Of a stretch of DNA of 64,000 nt, positions 7,215 through 20,174 are shown piece after piece (within the stretch, counting starts at the first letter, position 1; each line of letters starts with the position of its first letter). This DNA comes from an uncultured Lachnospiraceae bacterium. GTDB lineage: Bacteria; Bacillota; Clostridia; Lachnospirales; Lachnospiraceae. Location of the stretch: contig CALWPY010000001.1 in the NCBI GenBank assembly GCA_944383545.1, forward strand, positions 43,980 to 107,979, given 5' to 3'. The notes beneath the pieces were generated by a model, which was given only the letters and a program-made list of their open reading frames with translations, did no database searches and was not told where the DNA came from. Both the position numbers and the translations under genes were made by a program.

Positions 7215-7230
7215 TGTTTCACGTGAAACA
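7215..7230. promoter_or_regulatory. parS site 1
   Basis: Perfect 16-bp consensus TGTTTCACGTGAAACA, lying in a longer 28-bp perfect palindrome (7209-7236). It is about 200 bp upstream of parA. Confidence 0.97.
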
Positions 7231-7311: not shown

Positions 7312-7361
7312 AAAAGAGGAATAAGTGATGTTTCACGTGAAACATCACTTATTCCTCTTTT
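7312..7361 (-). terminator. Probable argS terminator built on parS site 2
   Basis: A 50-bp perfect palindrome with half-site AAAAGAGGAATAAGTGATG then TTTCAC, ending in CCTCTTTT on both strands. It lies 59 bp past the argS stop on the minus strand. As RNA it would fold into a very long stem with a U-run, so it probably doubles as a terminator. The rest of the 7017-7419 gap holds parS site 1, a 15-nt palindrome CATGTTTTAAACATG (7101-7115) and no gene I can support. Confidence 0.6.
7329..7344. promoter_or_regulatory. parS site 2
   Basis: Second perfect TGTTTCACGTGAAACA, 114 bp from the first, at the exact centre of a 50-bp perfect palindrome (7312-7361). Confidence 0.97.
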
Positions 7362-11820: not shown

Positions 11821-12459
11821 ATGAGACTTAGAAACGTAAAAGGTTCAAGAGAATTAATTGCAGAAAATAAATATGTAATAGAAGAAACTGAAATGAAGGG
11901 AAAATGGCATGAGATTTTCGGCAACAAAAATCCCATTCACATTGAAATAGGAATGGGTAAGGGGAAGTTTATAACCGAGCTTGCAAAAAGAAATCCACAG
12001 ATTAATTATATCGGAATAGAAAAATATTCAAGCGTACTTGTGCGTGCAATAGAGAAGCGTGAAAAAGAGGAAGATATGCAAAATCTGTATTTTATCAGAA
12101 TGGATGCAGAGTATCTAGAGAATGTATTTGATAAAGGCGAGGTGGCTTATATATATCTCAATTTTTCAGATCCATGGCCAAAGGACCGTCATGCAAAAAG
12201 AAGACTTACATCAGAGCAGTTTCTCTCAAGATATAAAAATATTCTTTCTGACGGAGGAGGGGTTACATTTAAAACGGACAATACGGCTCTTTTTGATTTT
12301 TCTTTGGAAGAGGCTGATAAGGCAGGATGGAAAAAGGTGAATGTTACAAGAGACCTTCATAATTCTGAATTTGCGGAGGGAAATGTCATGACAGAATATG
12401 AGACAAAATTTTCGGAAATGGGGAATCCCATATACCGTATGGTGATAAAACCTCAGTAA
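11821..12459 (+). CDS. trmB: tRNA (guanine-46-N7)-methyltransferase
   Basis: 212 residues, normal length. The Rossmann SAM-binding motif is IEIGMGKGKFITELA, followed by YIGIEKYSSV, and the TrmB signature FSDPWPKDRHAKRRLT sits in the middle. It methylates G46 in the variable loop of many tRNAs. Divergent from the carboxypeptidase. The start follows AGGAAAGGTAAAATT at normal spacing. Confidence 0.96.
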   Translation: MRLRNVKGSRELIAENKYVIEETEMKGKWHEIFGNKNPIHIEIGMGKGKFITELAKRNPQINYIGIEKYSSVLVRAIEKREKEEDMQNLYFIRMDAEYLENVFDKGEVAYIYLNFSDPWPKDRHAKRRLTSEQFLSRYKNILSDGGGVTFKTDNTALFDFSLEEADKAGWKKVNVTRDLHNSEFAEGNVMTEYETKFSEMGNPIYRMVIKPQ

Positions 12460-12503
12460 ACATTTGTCATTTACGATAATTCGGCAATAAAAATTAACCT
12501 TCT

Positions 12504-12532
12504 GTGACAAAGCTGCATATAATATATATAAT
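12504..12532 (+). promoter_or_regulatory. Sigma-A promoter for the small Cys-rich gene
   Basis: GTGACA (12504-12509), 17-bp spacer, TATAAT (12527-12532), giving a leader of about 35 nt before the ATG at 12573. Confidence 0.7.
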
Positions 12533-12572
12533 TTGTAATAAAAGTAAGGCAAAATTTGCCGGGGGAGGTTTT

Positions 12573-12743
12573 ATGGGTTGTTGCAAATGGAAACATAAAA
12601 TTAATTCAATTGTTTACAGAAACAGGTGTCTGAACAATACCGCACACAGATTATACTGTAATATTGAAGAATTGAAGTGTTGTCTTTGTGGTAAAAGTCA
12701 CAGAGACAAAGGCAGAAATTGTAGAAAATCAACAAAATTTTAA
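12573..12743 (+). CDS. 56-residue cysteine-rich small protein, unknown
   Basis: Small gene with a near-ideal ribosome site (GGGGGAGG then ATG) and its own promoter. The 56 residues contain eight cysteines (positions 3, 4, 19, 29, 36, 37, 39, 50), four histidines and many Lys/Arg; MGCCKWKH at the start and CCLCGKSH at 36-43 look like metal ligands. There is no signal peptide, so a cytosolic zinc- or iron-binding peptide is plausible. It lies between trmB and tRNA-Lys. I do not recognise a family. The strong promoter and ribosome site argue that it is real. Confidence 0.6.
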   Translation: MGCCKWKHKINSIVYRNRCLNNTAHRLYCNIEELKCCLCGKSHRDKGRNCRKSTKF

Positions 12744-12759
12744 TTTTGTAAAAAAAATG

Positions 12760-12788
12760 TTGCATTTTAAAATAAGTTATACTATAAT
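12760..12788 (+). promoter_or_regulatory. Sigma-A promoter of tRNA-Lys
   Basis: TTGCAT (12760-12765), 17-bp spacer, TATAAT (12783-12788). Confidence 0.75.
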
Positions 12789-12826
12789 CATTAAGTGCTT
12801 GAGAGACAGCAGATAAAATTAAATAC

Positions 12827-12899
12827 GGGCCGCTAGCTCATTTGGTAGAGCACCTGACTCTTAATCAGGGTGTGCGGGGTTCGAGCCCCCGGCGGCCCA
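12827..12899 (+). tRNA. tRNA-Lys (anticodon CTT)
   Basis: 73-nt cloverleaf. Acceptor GGGCCGC pairs with GCGGCCC, discriminator A. The anticodon stem CCTGA/TCAGG closes loop CTCTTAA, giving anticodon CTT (Lys, AAG). T-arm CGGGG-TTCGAGC-CCCCG. CCA is not encoded. Confidence 0.96.
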
Positions 12900-12930
12900 C
12901 TTACGGGAGGGCTGAGGACTTTGTGCATAG

Positions 12931-12954
12931 GCAAGGTTTTTGGCCTTTTTTTTA
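12931..12954 (+). terminator. Probable terminator of tRNA-Lys
   Basis: Short AGGC/GCCT-type stem (from AGGCAAGG to GGCC) followed by an unbroken run of eight T. The stem is short but the T-run is strong. Confidence 0.5.
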
Positions 12955-12984
12955 CAAAAATTTTGAGGGAATCATTTACATATA

Positions 12985-12998
12985 GCGGCATAAAAGGA
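12985..12998 (+). repeat. Left 14-bp flanking direct repeat of repeat copy A
   Basis: GCGGCATAAAAGGA, identical to 13125-13138. The two bracket the double-hairpin repeat and look like a target-site duplication. Confidence 0.65.
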
Positions 12999-13006
12999 CG
13001 CGACAA

Positions 13007-13091
13007 GGTATCGCGCGCATGAAAAATCGAACTTCGTGCGATGGCGCGCGAGCAGTTCATCAATTTGCTTCGCAAATTGGTGAAGAATGCG
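13007..13091 (-). repeat. Double-hairpin dispersed repeat, copy A
   Basis: Reverse-oriented copy of the element found twice between mnmE and mnmG. Hairpin 1 (13056-13084) is a 13-bp stem TTCATCAATTTGC / GCAAATTGGTGAA with loop TTC. Hairpin 2 (13011-13051) has an 8-bp outer stem TCGCGCGC/GCGCGCGA and an inner ATCG-type stem. Similarity to copy C continues to about 13115 (the GGGGGCCA/CCGCG segment read on the minus strand). Much GC-richer than its surroundings, and it encodes nothing plausible. Confidence 0.85.
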
Positions 13092-13124
13092 TTAGCACCG
13101 CGGGTGGCCCCCGCCTTTCAGGCG

Positions 13125-13138
13125 GCGGCATAAAAGGA
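13125..13138 (+). repeat. Right 14-bp flanking direct repeat of repeat copy A
   Basis: GCGGCATAAAAGGA, second copy. It contributes the ribosome site (AAAAGGAG) of the histidine phosphatase gene that starts at 13146. Confidence 0.65.
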
Positions 13139-13145
13139 GTATGAT

Positions 13146-13676
13146 ATGAGGCTTTACGTCGCGAGACACGGACAGACACAATACAATCTGGAGAAGAGAA
13201 TATGCGGAAGGGCTGATGTTGAGCTTACGGACAGAGGTGTAAGACAGGCAGAGGAGCTGGCTGAGAAACTGGTGAGCTACAGTATAGATTTAATTATTTC
13301 ATCACCTTTAAACAGAGCAAGAAAAACGGCAAAAATTGTCGGAGAAAAAGTAGGTGCGCCCGTGTATTTTGAGGACAGACTTATGGAACGGGATTATGGT
13401 CTTACAGACGGAACATATGAGGGGACTCCGGGTTTTGTACATACCTTCAGACAATTTGCCTACACATATCCCGATGGAGAGTCCCTGCTTCAGGTAGTTC
13501 AGAGGGTGTATAATTTTCTTGATGAAGTGAAATTTAAATTTCATGATAAGAATGTACTTATAGTAAGTCACGGAGGAGTATGCCGTGTAATTAATTCTTA
13601 TTTTAAAAGCCTGTCAAATGAAGAGTTTTATGACTTTGTTCTGGATAATTGTAAGGTATTGGAATATGAATTTTAA
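13146..13676 (+). CDS. Histidine phosphatase / phosphoglycerate mutase family protein
   Basis: 176 residues. The catalytic RHG motif is at 8-10 (VARHGQTQYNLE), with the second conserved histidine in VLIVSHGGVCRV near residue 142. Between them is the acid-base segment FEDRLMERDYG. The superfamily includes cofactor-dependent phosphoglycerate mutases, alpha-ribazole phosphatase and broad phosphatases; no cobalamin genes are near, so the substrate stays open. The AAAAGGAGTATGAT ribosome site lies inside the right flanking repeat of copy A, meaning the insertion preserved it. Confidence 0.88.
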   Translation: MRLYVARHGQTQYNLEKRICGRADVELTDRGVRQAEELAEKLVSYSIDLIISSPLNRARKTAKIVGEKVGAPVYFEDRLMERDYGLTDGTYEGTPGFVHTFRQFAYTYPDGESLLQVVQRVYNFLDEVKFKFHDKNVLIVSHGGVCRVINSYFKSLSNEEFYDFVLDNCKVLEYEF

Positions 13677-13754
13677 AATTTGAATGTCAGACTTTGGATA
13701 TTAAAATCAGGGGAAGGATGTATTCGGGTTTTGCTTTATTATGGGAGGGGTAAT

Positions 13755-15371
13755 ATGCAGGACTTTAAAGTTACGCTTAATGAATGTTATAAAATTTGCA
13801 ACAGGTATGAAAAGAAATTGCCTGGGTATGAGGATGAGGATTTATTCTGGGAATTCTCTGACGATTTAGTAAACATGGCTTACCTTATTGCGCTGAGTGA
13901 CGGCTCAGTGGATGTAAGCGAAGTAACTACAATTAATTCTACATTTAATATTCTCTATGACCCGATAATGCTTATGAAGCGTTATGGTATGGATTATATT
14001 TCTGAGGATAGTTTTCTTCAAAAGATTCCACAAAGTATTATAAAAGTTGCAAAAATTGAAAAAGAAGAAAATTTTGGCGCTGAATGTTTTCTTAAAGATA
14101 CCAGGATGCTTTATCAGGCGATGAAGGATTTTGGAAATATTATTATCAACTGTGATGGGGAAAGACTCAGGTTTCAGGTGGTACTTCACAGATTTTTTAT
14201 TGATAAAATTAAAAATTATATATTGGAAATTGAAAAAGAAGATAACATTCTGGATATAAATAATAATTCAAAAGAAAAAGTCTTTGAAACAGAAGGCATG
14301 AATAAAATCATACTGCGGCTTCCTGAAAAAAGTATAAAAGATGCAGATGTAAAAACATCAGAAAAGATAAGTCAGGAGAAGTTTAACAGAGAACAGGAGA
14401 CTCTGATGCAGGTACCTATTGAGAAGACAATATATAACAGTATTGCACAAAATGACCGAGTTTATGAAAAGTATGCAAGTGAGGATTCTTTATCTGAGCA
14501 GGATATTTCAAGAAGTCATAATGAAACAGGCATGCCTGATATGAAAAAAATTAATGAGCTTCTTCATAAGGTAGATGGTTTGACAGGGCTCAATATGGTA
14601 AAGAAAGAAATTCACAATATGGTTAATCTGCTTCTGGTAAGAAAAATGAGAGAGAAGCAGGGATTAAAAATTCCACCTGTTTCAATGCACCTTGTATTTG
14701 CAGGAAATCCCGGAACAGGAAAGACAACCATTGCAAGAATGATAGCAGAAATTTATAAATGTCTCGGTCTGCTTGAAACAGGACAGCTTGTTGAAACTGA
14801 CCGTTCAGGCATTGTAGCGGGATATATGGGACAGACAGCTGAAAGAGTTCAGGAGATTGCAGATTCTGCAATGGGCGGAGTTTTATTTATTGATGAGGCT
14901 TATACTCTGACCGTGGGAAAAAACGATGGTGATTTCGGGCAGGAGGCAATCGACACACTCTTAAAGATAATGGAAGACAGAAGAGAAAATTTCATGGTAA
15001 TAGTGGCAGGCTACACCGATAAAATGGAAAAGTTTCTTGATTCAAATCCGGGGCTTCGTTCCAGATTCAGTAAATATATATTTTTTAATGATTACAGCAT
15101 AGATGAGCTGTATGAGATATTTGAAAAATACTGCAAAGAGCAGGATTATACACTTGCACCGGGACTTGCCGATAAGGTAAAAGATATAATAAACGAGATG
15201 AAGAATGAAAAAGGAGAAGCTTTTGGAAATGCCAGAGAGATAAGAAATTATTTTGAAAGGGTAATTTCCAATCAGGCAAACAGAATAATGTCTCTTCATA
15301 ATACGTTAAATGATATGGATAAAGAGAATTCTGCCGTTGATTTGGTTACTATAACGGAAGGAGATTTGTAA
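13755..15371 (+). CDS. CbbX/SpoVK-type AAA+ ATPase with a TerB-like N-terminal region
   Basis: 538 residues from ATG 13755, chosen for the GGGAGGGG just upstream; an earlier in-frame TTG has no ribosome site. The N-terminal ~150 residues contain MAYLIALSDGSVDVSEVTTI, which resembles TerB-like helical domains (inference). A charged linker of ~120 residues follows. The C-terminal AAA+ module has Walker A GNPGTGKTT, Walker B GGVLFIDEAYTL, and sensor/arginine-finger region IVAGYTDKMEKFLDSNPGL then RSRF. It belongs with CbbX, SpoVK and EccA, ring ATPases that remodel protein partners. Partner unknown; it follows the phosphatase gene by ~80 bp. Confidence 0.85.
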   Translation: MQDFKVTLNECYKICNRYEKKLPGYEDEDLFWEFSDDLVNMAYLIALSDGSVDVSEVTTINSTFNILYDPIMLMKRYGMDYISEDSFLQKIPQSIIKVAKIEKEENFGAECFLKDTRMLYQAMKDFGNIIINCDGERLRFQVVLHRFFIDKIKNYILEIEKEDNILDINNNSKEKVFETEGMNKIILRLPEKSIKDADVKTSEKISQEKFNREQETLMQVPIEKTIYNSIAQNDRVYEKYASEDSLSEQDISRSHNETGMPDMKKINELLHKVDGLTGLNMVKKEIHNMVNLLLVRKMREKQGLKIPPVSMHLVFAGNPGTGKTTIARMIAEIYKCLGLLETGQLVETDRSGIVAGYMGQTAERVQEIADSAMGGVLFIDEAYTLTVGKNDGDFGQEAIDTLLKIMEDRRENFMVIVAGYTDKMEKFLDSNPGLRSRFSKYIFFNDYSIDELYEIFEKYCKEQDYTLAPGLADKVKDIINEMKNEKGEAFGNAREIRNYFERVISNQANRIMSLHNTLNDMDKENSAVDLVTITEGDL

Positions 15372-15426
15372 TATTATGAATGCATTAATTATGCATTAAC
15401 TTTATTTTAAAAAAGCATATCATTTA

Positions 15427-15455
15427 TTGAAAAAAAACAGGTATTATGTTAAGAT
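15427..15455 (+). promoter_or_regulatory. Sigma-A promoter of the zinc-ribbon repeat protein
   Basis: TTGAAA (15427-15432), 17-bp spacer, TAAGAT (15450-15455). A small CTTTCAC/GTGAAGG hairpin follows in the leader. Confidence 0.5.
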
Positions 15456-15539
15456 GAATATAATGTACTTTCACAAAGTGAAGGACTGAAGACATGGAAA
15501 AAACATGCCTTTATATTAAAAATTTTAGGAGGACAAAAT

Positions 15540-16457
15540 ATGAGATGTTCTAATTGCGGAAATGAAATTCCGGATAATTCTGCATTTTGCACAAGTTGTG
15601 GAGCACCAGTAACATCACAGCCAATGGGAAATGACCAGTCATATCAGCAGCCACAGCAGGGCGCTTACCAACAGCCACAGGGCGCTTACCAACAGCCACA
15701 GGGCGGTTATCAGCAGCCACAGCAGGGAGATTACAATCAGCCATATCAGCAGGGAGGCTACCAGCAGCCACAGGGTGGTTACAATCAGCCATATCAGCAG
15801 GGAGGCTACCAGCAGCCACAGGGTGGTTACAATCAGCCATATCAGCAGGGAGGCTATCAGCAGCCACAGGGTGGTTATAATCAGCCATATCAGCAGCCAC
15901 AGGTAAATTACGGCGGAAGCAAGGTTGATTTCCAGGGCGTTGTTTCAGATTTAAAGACAAATATTTTTAAGACTATAGGACTTGTAGGAGCAATTTTGAT
16001 TTTCCTTTCTTCATTCCTTCCGGGATGGGTATATGCAAAATACGGTTCAGACAGCGAGTCAGCAGGTCTTTTTGCAGAGGATGGAGGAATATTAAAATTA
16101 TATGGTATACTTTTATTAATTATATCACTTGCAATGATAGTTTTTGCTTTAAGTGACTTCATTCGTGTTCCTGCAATAAAGAATTTTGCCCAGAAGTTTA
16201 ATTCACTTCCTTTCAGTGCATTTTATCTTCCGGCAGCTTCACTTATACTTTTCTTTTTAGCTACATTTAATTCTAATTTCAGAGATGTAATTGATGCAAT
16301 TAACGAAATTAAGGATATGTATTCATCATGGATGGGCTCATCTTCTGATATAAGCGGTGGATATGGATATGCATTCTGGTTCTGCCTTATAGGAATAATT
16401 CTTACACTTGTTCCTGCAGTAATGAGTTTAATTAACAAAAATAAAAATACATACTAA
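15540..16457 (+). CDS. Zinc-ribbon membrane protein with Q/P/G/Y repeats
   Basis: 305 residues. An N-terminal zinc ribbon (CSNCG at 3-7 and CTSCG at 17-21) is followed by a low-complexity region (about 30-125) made of Gln, Pro, Gly and Tyr, then about four membrane segments in the C-terminal half, including PFSAFYLPAASLILFFLA. The repeats include two 7-residue GAYQQPQ units and three exact 16-residue units. Proteins of this build are common in Clostridia; function unknown. A strong TTAGGAGGA ribosome site precedes the ATG. The zinc-ribbon plus membrane plan recurs in the gene at 26429. Confidence 0.85.
   Translation: MRCSNCGNEIPDNSAFCTSCGAPVTSQPMGNDQSYQQPQQGAYQQPQGAYQQPQGGYQQPQQGDYNQPYQQGGYQQPQGGYNQPYQQGGYQQPQGGYNQPYQQGGYQQPQGGYNQPYQQPQVNYGGSKVDFQGVVSDLKTNIFKTIGLVGAILIFLSSFLPGWVYAKYGSDSESAGLFAEDGGILKLYGILLLIISLAMIVFALSDFIRVPAIKNFAQKFNSLPFSAFYLPAASLILFFLATFNSNFRDVIDAINEIKDMYSSWMGSSSDISGGYGYAFWFCLIGIILTLVPAVMSLINKNKNTY
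15753..15896 (+). repeat. 48-bp tandem repeat, three copies, in coding sequence
   Basis: Three consecutive 48-bp units (15753, 15801, 15849) each encode GGYQQPQGGYNQPYQQ; a degenerate 51-bp unit (15702-15752) precedes them. Differences are nearly all synonymous, so the array is recent and could expand or contract in frame. Confidence 0.9.
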
Positions 16458-16466
16458 GATGTAATA

Positions 16467-16507
16467 AAAAGGGCGATGCAATGAAATGTTGCATTGCTCT
16501 TTTTTTA
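16467..16507 (+). terminator. Intrinsic terminator of the zinc-ribbon gene
   Basis: AAAGGGCGATGCAA pairs with TTGCATTGCTCTTT (two G-U), 7-nt loop, then a T-run. Confidence 0.88.
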
Positions 16508-16515
16508 ATTTCCAC

Positions 16516-16544
16516 TTCACATTTTGTACATTAGAGTTTATACT
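16516..16544 (+). promoter_or_regulatory. Sigma-A promoter of mnmE
   Basis: TTCACA (16516-16521), 17-bp spacer, TATACT (16539-16544), 42 bp ahead of the mnmE start. Confidence 0.65.
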
Positions 16545-16585
16545 TGTACGTATAGGAAATTTAGCGGCAGTGAAAGAGGTAAGGT

Positions 16586-17980
16586 ATGACGGTTAAAGAT
16601 ACAATCTGCGCCATTGCAACCGGCATGGGTAATTCGGGAATCGGTATAGTGAGGATAAGCGGTGACGATGCAATTCCAATAGCAGACAGGATATTTAAAG
16701 GAAAAAAAAGAATAAAAGACATGCCTTCCTATACTGCGGCATATGGTAATATATGTGACGAAAACGGGGAATTGATAGACGAGGCTGTTTTACTGGTTAT
16801 GAAGGCGCCCCATACTTACACTACTGAAGATGTGGTGGAAATTGACTGCCACGGCGGAATTATCATATTAAAAAAGATAATGGAGCTGATAATCAGAAAC
16901 GGCGCCAGGGCAGCAGAGCCGGGAGAATTTACAAAGAGAGCATTTTTAGGCGGGCGTATAGATATGTCGCAGGCAGAGGCTGTAATGGAGCTCATAGGTG
17001 CAAAAAGCGACATGGCACTTAAATCCTCGCTTCATCAGCTTAAGGGTGAGCTGAGAGATAAAATAAAAGAAATGAGGGAAACTCTTCTATATAATATAGC
17101 ATTTATAGAGTCTGCATTAGATGACCCTGAAAATTACAGTCTGGACGGCTATCCTGAAAAGCTTCTGGAAATAGTGGAAGGCTTGCGGGAAAGCATTAAC
17201 AGGCTTTTAAAGACGTGCGAAAACGGAAGACTGGTAAAAGAGGGTATAAAGACAGTTATTGTAGGACGCCCGAATGCCGGAAAATCTTCGGTTTTAAATA
17301 TGATACTGGGAGAAGAAAGAGCCATTGTAACAGGCGTTGAGGGAACTACGAGAGATACACTTGAGGAAGTTATTAATATTAACGGTATAATACTTAAGCT
17401 TGTCGATACGGCGGGAATCCGTACAACAGAGGATATCGTTGAAAAAATCGGGGTCGACAAGGCACTCGAAAATATTAATGACGCAGATTTAATTCTTTAT
17501 ATTGTTGACGGCTCGAAGGAGCTGGATGAAAATGACAATCAGATTATAGGCAGAATAAAAGATAAGAGAGTAATAACTCTTGTTAATAAAAATGATTTGG
17601 ATATAGTTGTTGATAAAGAAAAGCTGAGGGAGCTTTTGTACGGAAAAGGGCAGGAAAAAGAAAGCAGGATTATAGAAATATCGGCAAAAAACAAGACGGG
17701 GAAAGAAAAGCTTCATGACATGCTGAATGAGATGTTTTTTTCGGGAGAAGTTTCGTATAATGATGAATTATATATTACAAACATGCGCCATAAAGAAGCA
17801 CTTATGGCAGCCGAAGAAAGTCTCGGAAATGTGCAAAACAGCATAGAAGCAGGCATGGGTGAGGACTTTTTTACAATAGATATGATGGATGCCTATGAGA
17901 GCCTTGGGCTTATAATCGGTGAAGCTTTGGGTGATGATTTGGCAGAAAAAATATTCAGTGAATTTTGTATGGGAAAATAA
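16586..17980 (+). CDS. mnmE: tRNA-modification GTPase MnmE (TrmE)
   Basis: 464 residues, full length. It has the N-terminal formyl-THF-binding domain (GIGIVRISGDDA), a central helical domain, and an inserted G domain with GRPNAGKSSVLN (G1), DTAGIR (G3) and NKNDLD (G4). The C-terminal FCMGK matches the conserved C-x-G-K. With MnmG it makes the cmnm5 modification of U34 in tRNAs. Unusually, 304 bp of repeat DNA separates it from mnmG. Confidence 0.97.
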   Translation: MTVKDTICAIATGMGNSGIGIVRISGDDAIPIADRIFKGKKRIKDMPSYTAAYGNICDENGELIDEAVLLVMKAPHTYTTEDVVEIDCHGGIIILKKIMELIIRNGARAAEPGEFTKRAFLGGRIDMSQAEAVMELIGAKSDMALKSSLHQLKGELRDKIKEMRETLLYNIAFIESALDDPENYSLDGYPEKLLEIVEGLRESINRLLKTCENGRLVKEGIKTVIVGRPNAGKSSVLNMILGEERAIVTGVEGTTRDTLEEVININGIILKLVDTAGIRTTEDIVEKIGVDKALENINDADLILYIVDGSKELDENDNQIIGRIKDKRVITLVNKNDLDIVVDKEKLRELLYGKGQEKESRIIEISAKNKTGKEKLHDMLNEMFFSGEVSYNDELYITNMRHKEALMAAEESLGNVQNSIEAGMGEDFFTIDMMDAYESLGLIIGEALGDDLAEKIFSEFCMGK

Positions 17981-17990
17981 TGCCGCCGAC

Positions 17991-18072
17991 CTGCTTCACC
18001 AATTTGCGAAGCAAATTGATGAACTACTCACGCGCTATCGCACGAAGTGCGATTTTTCATGCGCGTGATACC
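17991..18072 (+). repeat. Double-hairpin dispersed repeat, copy B
   Basis: Hairpin 1 at 17995-18023 (CAATTTGC-GAA-GCAAATTG core). Hairpin 2 at 18028-18068, with outer stem TCACGCGC/GCGCGTGA and a perfect inner stem ATCGCAC-GAA-GTGCGAT. It begins 10 bp after the mnmE stop. Confidence 0.85.
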
Positions 18073-18081
18073 AATCCAGGG

Positions 18082-18188
18082 AGGGGGCCAGCCGCGACGC
18101 CATCGCGTTCTTCACCAATTTGTGTAACAAATTGATGAACTGCTCGCGCGCCATTGCACGAAGTGTGATTTTTCATGCGCGCGATACC
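18082..18188 (+). repeat. Double-hairpin dispersed repeat, copy C
   Basis: Hairpin 1 at 18111-18139 (CAATTTGT-GTA-ACAAATTG core) and hairpin 2 at 18144-18184 (TCGCGCGC/GCGCGCGA outer stem, ATTGCAC-GAA-GTGTGAT inner stem with two G-U pairs). The upstream part, GGGGGCCAGCCGCG and CGCGTTCTTCACC, matches copy A and shows the element extends beyond the two hairpins. Confidence 0.85.
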
Positions 18189-18253
18189 GCGAAGCGATTT
18201 TTAATGCGTCGCATCCAATAATACCGCCGACCTGCTTCACCAATTTGCGAAGC
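18186..18253 (+). repeat. Partial copies of the double-hairpin repeat before mnmG
   Basis: 18186-18216 resembles the right half of hairpin 2 (GCGAAGCGATTTTTAATGCG). 18217-18253 repeats 17976-18012 with one mismatch in 37 bp, from the AATAAT at the mnmE stop through the first arm of hairpin 1, then diverges into the mnmG leader. The long direct repeat, 241 bp apart, points to a tandem duplication. Confidence 0.75.
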
Positions 18254-18284
18254 GATTTACTTATTCCATACACGAGGTGATATA

Positions 18285-20174
18285 ATGGCAAATGTTGAAG
18301 AAACATATGATATAGTTGTAGTAGGAGCCGGTCATGCAGGTTGTGAGGCTGCTCTTGCAGCTGCAAGAATGGGTTTTGAAACAATACTTTTTACAATAAG
18401 CATGGACAGCGTAGCGCTCATGCCGTGCAATCCCAATATAGGCGGAAGCTCTAAAGGACATCTTGTACGAGAAGTGGATGCCCTGGGCGGAGAAATGGGA
18501 AAAAACATCGACAAGACATATATACAGTCAAAGATGCTTAACGTATCTAAGGGACCTGCCGTTCATTCTTTAAGGGCGCAGGCAGACAAAGTAGAATATA
18601 CAAAGCAGATGAGGCTTACTCTTCAGAATACGGACAGGCTGACACTCAGACAGGCAGAGGTGGCTGAACTCATGATAGAAAACGGAGAAGTAAGAGGCGT
18701 AAAAACCTATTCGGGAGCTGTTTATCATGCACGTGCGGTGGTGCTTTGTACCGGAACTTATATGAAGGCGAGATGTATTTACGGAGACGTGGTGAATTAC
18801 ACAGGACCGAACGGACTTCAGCCTTCTAACTATCTGTCCGACTCGATGAAAGATAACGGTATTTTTATAAGAAGATTTAAAACGGGTACGCCTGCAAGAC
18901 TTGATAAAAGGTCTATAGATTTTTCCAAAATGGAGGAACAGAAGGGCGACGAACATATAGTTCCGTTTTCATTTACAAATACCGAAGAGGATATAAAGAG
19001 AGAACAGATATCCTGCTATTTGACCTATACTAATGAAAAAACTCATGAAATAATAAGAAATAATGTCGACAGGTCTCCTCTTTTTTCGGGATTTATCGAG
19101 GGTACGGGACCGAGATACTGTCCGTCAATAGAGGATAAGGTTATAAAATTCCCCGAAAAGACAAGGCACCAGCTTTTTATAGAGCCAGAGGGAGAATTTA
19201 CAAATGAAATGTATATGGGAGGAATGTCTTCTTCTCTTCCCGAGGACGTACAGTATGAAATGATTCATACCGTGCCGGGTCTGGAAAATGTAAAGATAGT
19301 AAGAAATGCCTATGCGATTGAGTATGACTGCATAAACGCCGTAGAATTAAAGCCGTCTCTTGAATTTAAGAGTATTTCGGGACTTTTTTCCGCAGGTCAG
19401 ATAAACGGAAGCTCAGGATATGAGGAAGCTGCTGCACAGGGTATTATGGCAGGAATAAACGCAGCCAGAAAGCTTCAGAAAAAGGAGCCTGTCGTGTTGG
19501 ACCGTTCTCAGGGGTATATAGGAGTTTTAATAGATGACTTGGTGACAAAAGAAACTTTTGAGCCTTACAGAATGATGACCTCGAGGGCGGAATACAGACT
19601 GCTTTTAAGGCAGGATAATGCTGATTTAAGGCTTACGGATATCGGACATGAGATAGGTCTTATTGACGAAGAAAGGTATAAGAAGTTTTGTGAAAAGAGA
19701 AACCTGATTAACAGTGAGCTGGAACGTCTGAATAGTGTCATGGTTGGTGCCAATAAAAAAAATCAGGAATTTTTGGAAAGACACGACAGCACACCGCTTA
19801 AAACAGCGGTATCTCTTGCAGAGCTTATAAGAAGACCTGAACTAAGTTATGAAAAAATCAGTGAAATAGATGAGGAAAGACCTGATATAAAACTTTCATC
19901 AGAAATCGTGGAACAGATAAATATTTCAATTAAGTATGAGGGTTACATTACCCGTCAAAGGCAGCAGGTGGAACATTTTAAGAAGCTCGAAAAGAGAAGA
20001 ATACCTTCAGATATAGATTATGATGATGTAACAAATTTAAGAAAGGAAGCAAGACAGAAGCTGAAACAAATCAGACCTGAGTCATTAGGACAGGCACAGA
20101 GAATTTCGGGAGTATCACCGGCAGATATATCTGTGCTTATGATTTATCTCAGCTTAAAGCCGAATAATCCTTAA
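18285..20174 (+). CDS. mnmG: tRNA uridine-5-carboxymethylaminomethyl modification enzyme MnmG (GidA)
   Basis: 629 residues, full length. N-terminal FAD-binding [20 protein letters not shown] (about residues 11-30), the family signature [21 protein letters not shown], and the C-terminal helical MnmE-binding domain ending [11 protein letters not shown]-dependent partner of MnmE in cmnm5U34 formation. The ribosome site ACGAGGTGATATA lies just after the repeat block, so expression may depend on read-through of the repeats or on a promoter within them. Confidence 0.97.

Follow-up and report, generated by a model that had tools for sequence, protein, structure and literature searches.

The window, that is, the whole stretch of 64,000 nucleotides analysed here (G000:C1:43980-107979), belongs to a Lachnospiraceae host genome (G000) of 2.26 Mb in 23 contigs that is 99.87% complete. 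Between an mnmE-like ORF (stop at 17980) and an mnmG-like ORF (start at 18285), both recognised by eye, lie two copies of a 79-nt element that we call H, which consists of a first hairpin, a linker CTRCTC, a second hairpin and a tail. A sequence-only reading of the window had described three such copies (A, B and C) with two hairpins each, and all of them are present, B and C on the plus strand and A on the minus strand. The extent of the unit needs correction: B and C belong to a nested composite at 17982-18258, in which H lies within a second element, M, and is followed by a truncated repeat, M itself closing near 18217 (Table 1). The degenerate M sequence beside copy A was matched a second time at C1:57061-57109 (E 4.4e-4). 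As had been remarked earlier, the elements are GC-rich in comparison with the surrounding DNA (H has 47% and the middle segment of M 75%; the window has 37%). Rfam gave no match over the elements in window positions 12000-20000 at E<=1 or in 20 loci at the gathering cut-off, apart from one T-box match that spans the stem-loop P described below.

Table 1. Mapped parts of elements H and M, in window positions
Feature	Position	Strand	Remarks
H copy B	17994..18072	+	hairpin 1, linker CTACTC, hairpin 2, tail; occupies the M hairpin 1 loop
H copy C	18110..18188	+	occupies the M hairpin 2 loop
H copy A	13007..13085	-	third 79-nt H copy
M first part (GCCGCCGACCTG), 5' arm of M hairpin 1	17982..17993	+	matches the start of unbroken M copies
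M middle part (AGGGAGGGGGCC...CATCGCGTT)	18078..18109	+	M positions 13-44 at C1:62057-62088
M last part, 3' arm of M hairpin 2	18189..18217	+	M positions 34-67 at C1:62162-62196; first bases overlap H
Truncated second M-H unit	18218..18258	+	repeat D4
Degenerate M first part beside copy A	13086..13128	-	M positions 2-44 at C1:57107-57065, E 0.0024
Possible degenerate M last part beside copy A	12988..13006	-	repeat I1; by eye

Elsewhere in the window, the perfect palindrome TGTTTCACGTGAAACA occurs twice, at 7215-7230 and 7329-7344 (mean in shuffles, 0.00), and is presumably parS-like; together with the nearby mnmE- and mnmG-like genes, this suggests that the region is near the replication origin. 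Positions 15540-16457 encode a protein that carries a CxxC pair motif at its N terminus as well as a low-complexity repeat of the QQPQGGY type, the DNA units of which are near-identical.

The double substitutions claimed for the H hairpins were found in the copies, with CAATTTGC/GCAAATTG versus CAATTTGT/ACAAATTG in hairpin 1 and TCACGCGC/GCGCGTGA versus TCGCGCGC/GCGCGCGA in the outer stem of hairpin 2. When folding was compared with 200 dinucleotide shuffles, copies B and C had z scores of -5.8 and -3.7, equalled by none of the shuffles, and copy A had a z score of -2.3, equalled by three; the three copies taken alone are little proof of structure. A covariance model, R1, was built from 18 full H copies in the host. 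In these copies 98.2% of the cells are paired, compared to 90.5% after shuffling, both sides have changed in 14 of the 26 pairs (7.9 after shuffling), and the covariation score is 0.328 (0.173 after shuffling), none of these three values being reached in 500 shuffles. Sliding the partner column by 1-3 positions makes the pairing fall to 22-43%. The number of further pair types is not exceptional (24 versus 22.1 shuffled in the 18 copies, reached by 63 of the 500 shuffles). Among 36 other matches (34 distinct), which include a sister family T, more H-type copies and matches from genomes G090 and G121, both-side changes were found in 22 of 26 pairs with a score of 0.491 versus 0.157 shuffled, and among 27 matches to a model R3 (24 distinct) from nine other genera, in 24 of 25 pairs with a score of 0.741 versus 0.166, both scores being biased towards the structure to which these alignments were fitted. 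Covariation is thereby seen in all three alignments, relative to shuffled controls that ignore the relatedness of the copies, and supports the sequence-only reading. On the plus strand, hairpin 1 retains a C-A mismatch in 16 of the 18 H copies, which pairs (as G-T) only on the opposite strand, and the wobble cells of H comprise 10 G-U and 3 A-C. Inspected by eye for terminal inverted repeats, the ends of H and T look non-complementary.

The family is dispersed, as had been proposed: R1 has at least 72 matches in the host at E<=1 and at least 41 at E<1e-3, counts that include the T copies. They are lower bounds because scoring covered 150 of the 792 first-look candidates, and above 1e-3 some matches are the same copies read in antisense. 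T (TATCACCAATCCGAAGGATTGATGATGCACGCACAGCGCC...), the second family with two hairpins, has many near identical copies at many sites, which suggests that it may have moved recently. To the right of three T copies (L049, L050 and L112) there are more hairpin-like repeats, ATCATGATTTCGCTCCGCTTCATCATGATTCGCGCACATT and GTCGCCTGTCGGCTCCATG..., chained by TATATCATG-like joints. The M model, R2, gave at least 72 host matches at E<=1 and at least 52 at E<1e-3, with 150 of 168 candidates scored and T copies included. We counted 25 M loci, six of which consist of two M copies in tandem, starting 69-74 nt apart; by itself M folds weakly, the one copy examined doing no better than its shuffles (z -0.56). 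Nesting is recurrent, with five H copies sitting between M position 44 and the point where M resumes at 34-42, at least two further H copies between M positions 12 and 13, and one H copy holding a T-like element inside; several of the M-H composites may derive from few insertions. Copies of T or M are also found at contig ends (C3:248474, C5:154940, C12:14, C22:1 and C5:137), as if breaking the assembly.

Across genera, the elements share a plan rather than a sequence, namely a hairpin 1, a short linker and a hairpin 2 with an uneven internal loop of 1:6 to 1:8, on stems whose letters are unrelated. Most of the 21 cross-genus matches that were folded, out of 27, show this plan, and the longer 3' side of the loop usually ends in AT and the tail often in CC. 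In 18 hand-picked elements from several families and genera, the sole invariant columns are one loop G and the bulge A36 and T37. Of 76 distinct rows, 49 have GYAG or CTRC in the linker, compared to 374 of 5192 windows (7.2%) of the same length inside the same elements, and the former count is too low because in several G090 rows the helix of the model takes up part of the linker; the motif is absent from T and from three H copies and, by eye, from M, which was outside the 76-row test. Matches to R1 were found in three of 150 Lachnospiraceae genomes. R3, at E<=0.001 and with scoring of 12 candidates in each genome, matched 11 of 397, and the two models combined give 12 carriers among 397. A conserved stem-loop, P (AAGGAGGGACC...GGAGGATTCCTT), replaces hairpin 1 in some units (G219, G149 and G000). 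It was found in 10 of the 397 genomes, with a backward control of zero in the rows listed, and adds five genomes (17 carriers if these P-only genomes are counted): G149, in which an uneven hairpin 2 follows P by eye, and G105, G127, G260 and G261, in which none was seen. In the host, one P stem-loop (L206 1501-1531, G000:C5:71122-71152) is located inside a stretch that scores as a T-box (L206 1392-1661, 101 bits), and this P is a hairpin repeat inserted in a putative riboswitch. The elements had no match in viral contigs, phages or plasmids, and a fairly strict H pattern was absent from all other species in a wider genome collection.

Six of the 25 M loci are in open frames, the criterion being a stop-to-stop frame of at least 300 aa with at least 50 aa on either side of M. 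The frames are those of pheT, a GH3 glucosidase, a YfhO protein, a GSP_synth protein and two proteins of 308 and 354 aa without a Pfam match, the former of which adjoins a sigma-factor-like ORF. The host PheT has a best identity of 77% among its nearest proteins, which come from Lachnospiraceae MAGs. Its insert adds 25 residues between the motifs MYG and xGDFF and is absent in all 80 relatives kept from 572, the segment being 44 residues long in the host and 19 (n=79) or 20 (n=1) in the relatives; solved PheRS chains also have an alignment gap at this place in two alignments. The GH3 insert is 48 residues long and is absent in 23 of the 23 relatives fetched, which have a 19-residue segment. 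In the YfhO protein, the domain match runs across the insert. Relatives without the insert are thus known for the pheT and GH3 inserts; for the intergenic copies there is no pair of strains with one empty site. Judging from the open frames, the M-bearing proteins would be functional. M is antisense to the gene in five of the six cases. There is no convincing intragenic case for H or T, as we took the 277-aa frame holding a T copy (L050) and the 578-aa frame with an H pair near its end (L002) to be chance read-through of spacers.

According to crude gene calls, 14 of 15 classified H loci, 9 of 15 T loci and 7 of 10 intergenic M loci lie between co-directional genes. Relative to these genes, H has the same orientation seven times and the opposite one seven times, T once and eight times, and intergenic M six times and once; the skew observed in T and intergenic M is unpredicted by a purely selfish reading. 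T copies tend to sit just upstream of gene starts, and an outward extended -10 box (TGNTATAAT, with at most one mismatch in TATAAT) is found 2-3 nt from 9 of 19 T copies, compared to none in any of the four 20-nt windows that follow. For H, none of 11 has an outward -10 box and one has a box on the other strand (L007). The box beside T may be a target or a part of T. Target-site duplication was unsupported by permutation (p 0.32 for T, 0.85 for H and 0.09 for M), and four T loci (L048, L050, L054 and L110) have identical 9-base flanks.

The elements could act as RNA or promoter-side structures, in leaders, spacers or tails, altering stability, termination, initiation or translation, and it would then be this role that keeps the fold. 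The prevalence of H and T between co-directional genes, the skewed orientation of T and intergenic M, the outward boxes beside T and the predominance of G-U over A-C on the plus strand of H are all consistent with such a role; however, H is evenly oriented, intragenic M is mostly antisense, the hairpin 1 mismatch pairs on the other strand only and no Rfam family matches the copies, and given these observations we consider the explanation unlikely.

In regard to the mobiliser, REP-type repeats are usually regarded as dependent on RAYT transposases, and the link to a RAYT-like TnpA_REP gene considered in the sequence-only reading was not supported. Y1_Tnp has no match at E<=10 in the host or in the copy-rich genome G090, and two matches over the cut-off in G121. 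Y1 is found in 218 of the 397 genomes of the family; of the 12 model carriers 6 have it, and 9 of 17 do when the P-only carriers are included, shares that indicate no association of Y1 with the repeats. None of 17 Y1 neighbourhoods contains a P motif or a match to R3 at E<=1; these were 17 of 22 matches, taken with flanks of at most 2 kb that were shorter at contig ends, in six carriers (G029, G187, G335, G121 and the P carriers G105 and G261), G127, G248 and G251 being left out. The search, at its sensitivity, thus gave no Y1 or RAYT mobiliser encoded in the present genome. Other candidates fared no better: reverse transcriptase occurs in 7 of the 10 P carriers at E<=0.001 and in none of G090, G149 and G127 (the last 69% complete), which rejects it as a common mobiliser, and the ORFs that recur in the neighbourhoods of the copies look ordinary by eye (Clp-, alcohol-dehydrogenase- and MATE-like, ABC and ribosomal). 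The host has a reverse transcriptase frame of 417 aa at L228 (G000:C15:21725-22348).

One could suppose a genuine GTAG-REP/RAYT system that has recently lost its transposase gene in this genome. The GYAG/CTRC linker is in agreement with such a system, and Di Nocera et al. 2013 (PMC3733652) report GYAG variants as well as REPtrons missing in some species. Against this, the carriers have Y1 in a share close to that of the family overall, their Y1 neighbourhoods are devoid of the element and the motif sits between two hairpins, not at one end, which makes a recent loss improbable in our opinion. Finally, without any selection on the fold, template switching of the nascent strand in hairpins, known as a form of palindrome correction, could copy one arm to the other and yield double changes in one step, and most changed H pairs are indeed standard pairs, but correction should erase the hairpin 1 mismatch, which is kept in nearly all full H copies, as well as the uneven loop of hairpin 2, which persists across genera, with A36 and T37 invariant in the 18 hand-picked elements, so that we give this last explanation very little credence.

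We rather favour the view, which we hold to be probable, that the elements are non-autonomous mobile palindromes of a REP- or RPE-like kind, kept for their single-strand fold. An enzyme would recognise the folded single strand by its hairpins, bulge and linker, and the recognised strand would be joined into exposed single-stranded DNA, for instance the loop of a hairpin or a promoter that has melted; selection for recognition would then preserve the fold while the letters of the stems drift. More tentatively, and with considerable doubt, the elements could represent a family-wide class of folded-single-strand mobile elements, moved without Y1 HUH transposases by an unknown co-evolving enzyme. 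In such a class, lineage-specific stems would accompany a constant hairpin 1, a GYAG/CTRC-type linker and a hairpin 2 whose T-rich bulge ends in AT, insertion would occur into opened DNA (the loops of earlier copies and promoter -10 boxes), and one member would have become peptide inserts of conserved proteins.

The elements can be compared with several known systems. According to the sources used for this comparison (PMC3733652, PMC8266576, PMC6006769, PMC10969869, PMC3116915), REPs are tagged GTAG or CGTC, the GTAG types accompanying RAYTs, the irregularity of the REP stem is important to recognition in E. coli, and both REPs and RPEs occur inside genes. With GTAG-REPs or REPINs and their RAYTs, our elements have in common that they are short dispersed palindromes with compensatory stem changes and an irregular stem and are mostly intergenic with some copies in genes, and they may share the GYAG-type tetranucleotide at a hairpin base, which part of the copies lack; they are unlike them in having two hairpins around the tetranucleotide and an uneven 1:6 to 1:8 loop, and in the lack of a Y1 match in the host or beside the copies. 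We did not file them as GTAG-REP/RAYT because the transposase, a feature that was tested, was not found. The Rickettsia palindromic elements (RPE) likewise insert in frame into protein genes, conserved ones included, and leave the frames intact, whereas here this concerns M only (about 70 nt) in a Lachnospiraceae host, and the likeness is one of insertion behaviour. The palindromic MITEs derived from IS200/IS605 (PATE) have hairpins and no target duplication, as do our elements, for which none was supported, but the present host is without a Y1 match, and no complete element bearing such ends came to light in the loci fetched; target-site duplication is in turn a feature of MITEs, and as such is unsupported here. 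CGTC-tagged REPs have no known dedicated transposase according to PMC3733652; M resembles them by its CGTCC end, and no dedicated transposase is known for it either, although the CGTC is partly within the M stem and H and T end otherwise. In the survey PMC3733652 the words Firmicutes and Clostridi- are absent, and among the 12-15 best-ranked open-licence papers of each literature search none has a title on such repeats in Lachnospiraceae. The REP-like anatomy proposed from the sequence is supported by our results and the earlier interpretation as a whole is partly supported; the nesting of H in M loops, the in-frame M inserts, the uneven loop of hairpin 2 and the spread across genera are features that it did not foresee.

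The existence of a structurally conserved family scattered over a major gut clade, in genomes that gave no RAYT, makes the mover of transposase-less palindromes a testable matter. The pheT and GH3 inserts offer clean natural cases of a mobile hairpin turned into a part of a protein, and selection for single-strand structure, in DNA or RNA, has a strong natural experiment in the covarying copies.

Orthologous insertion sites common to several genera were considered and rejected, as elements lie near rplK/rplA and in the S10 operon of different genomes, but in different gaps. A motif, GTGGGAGGGTNNNTCCCGAT, adjoins an H-type element in the same orientation both before rplA in the host (L016) and before rplK in G187 (L267), and is a possible shared target.
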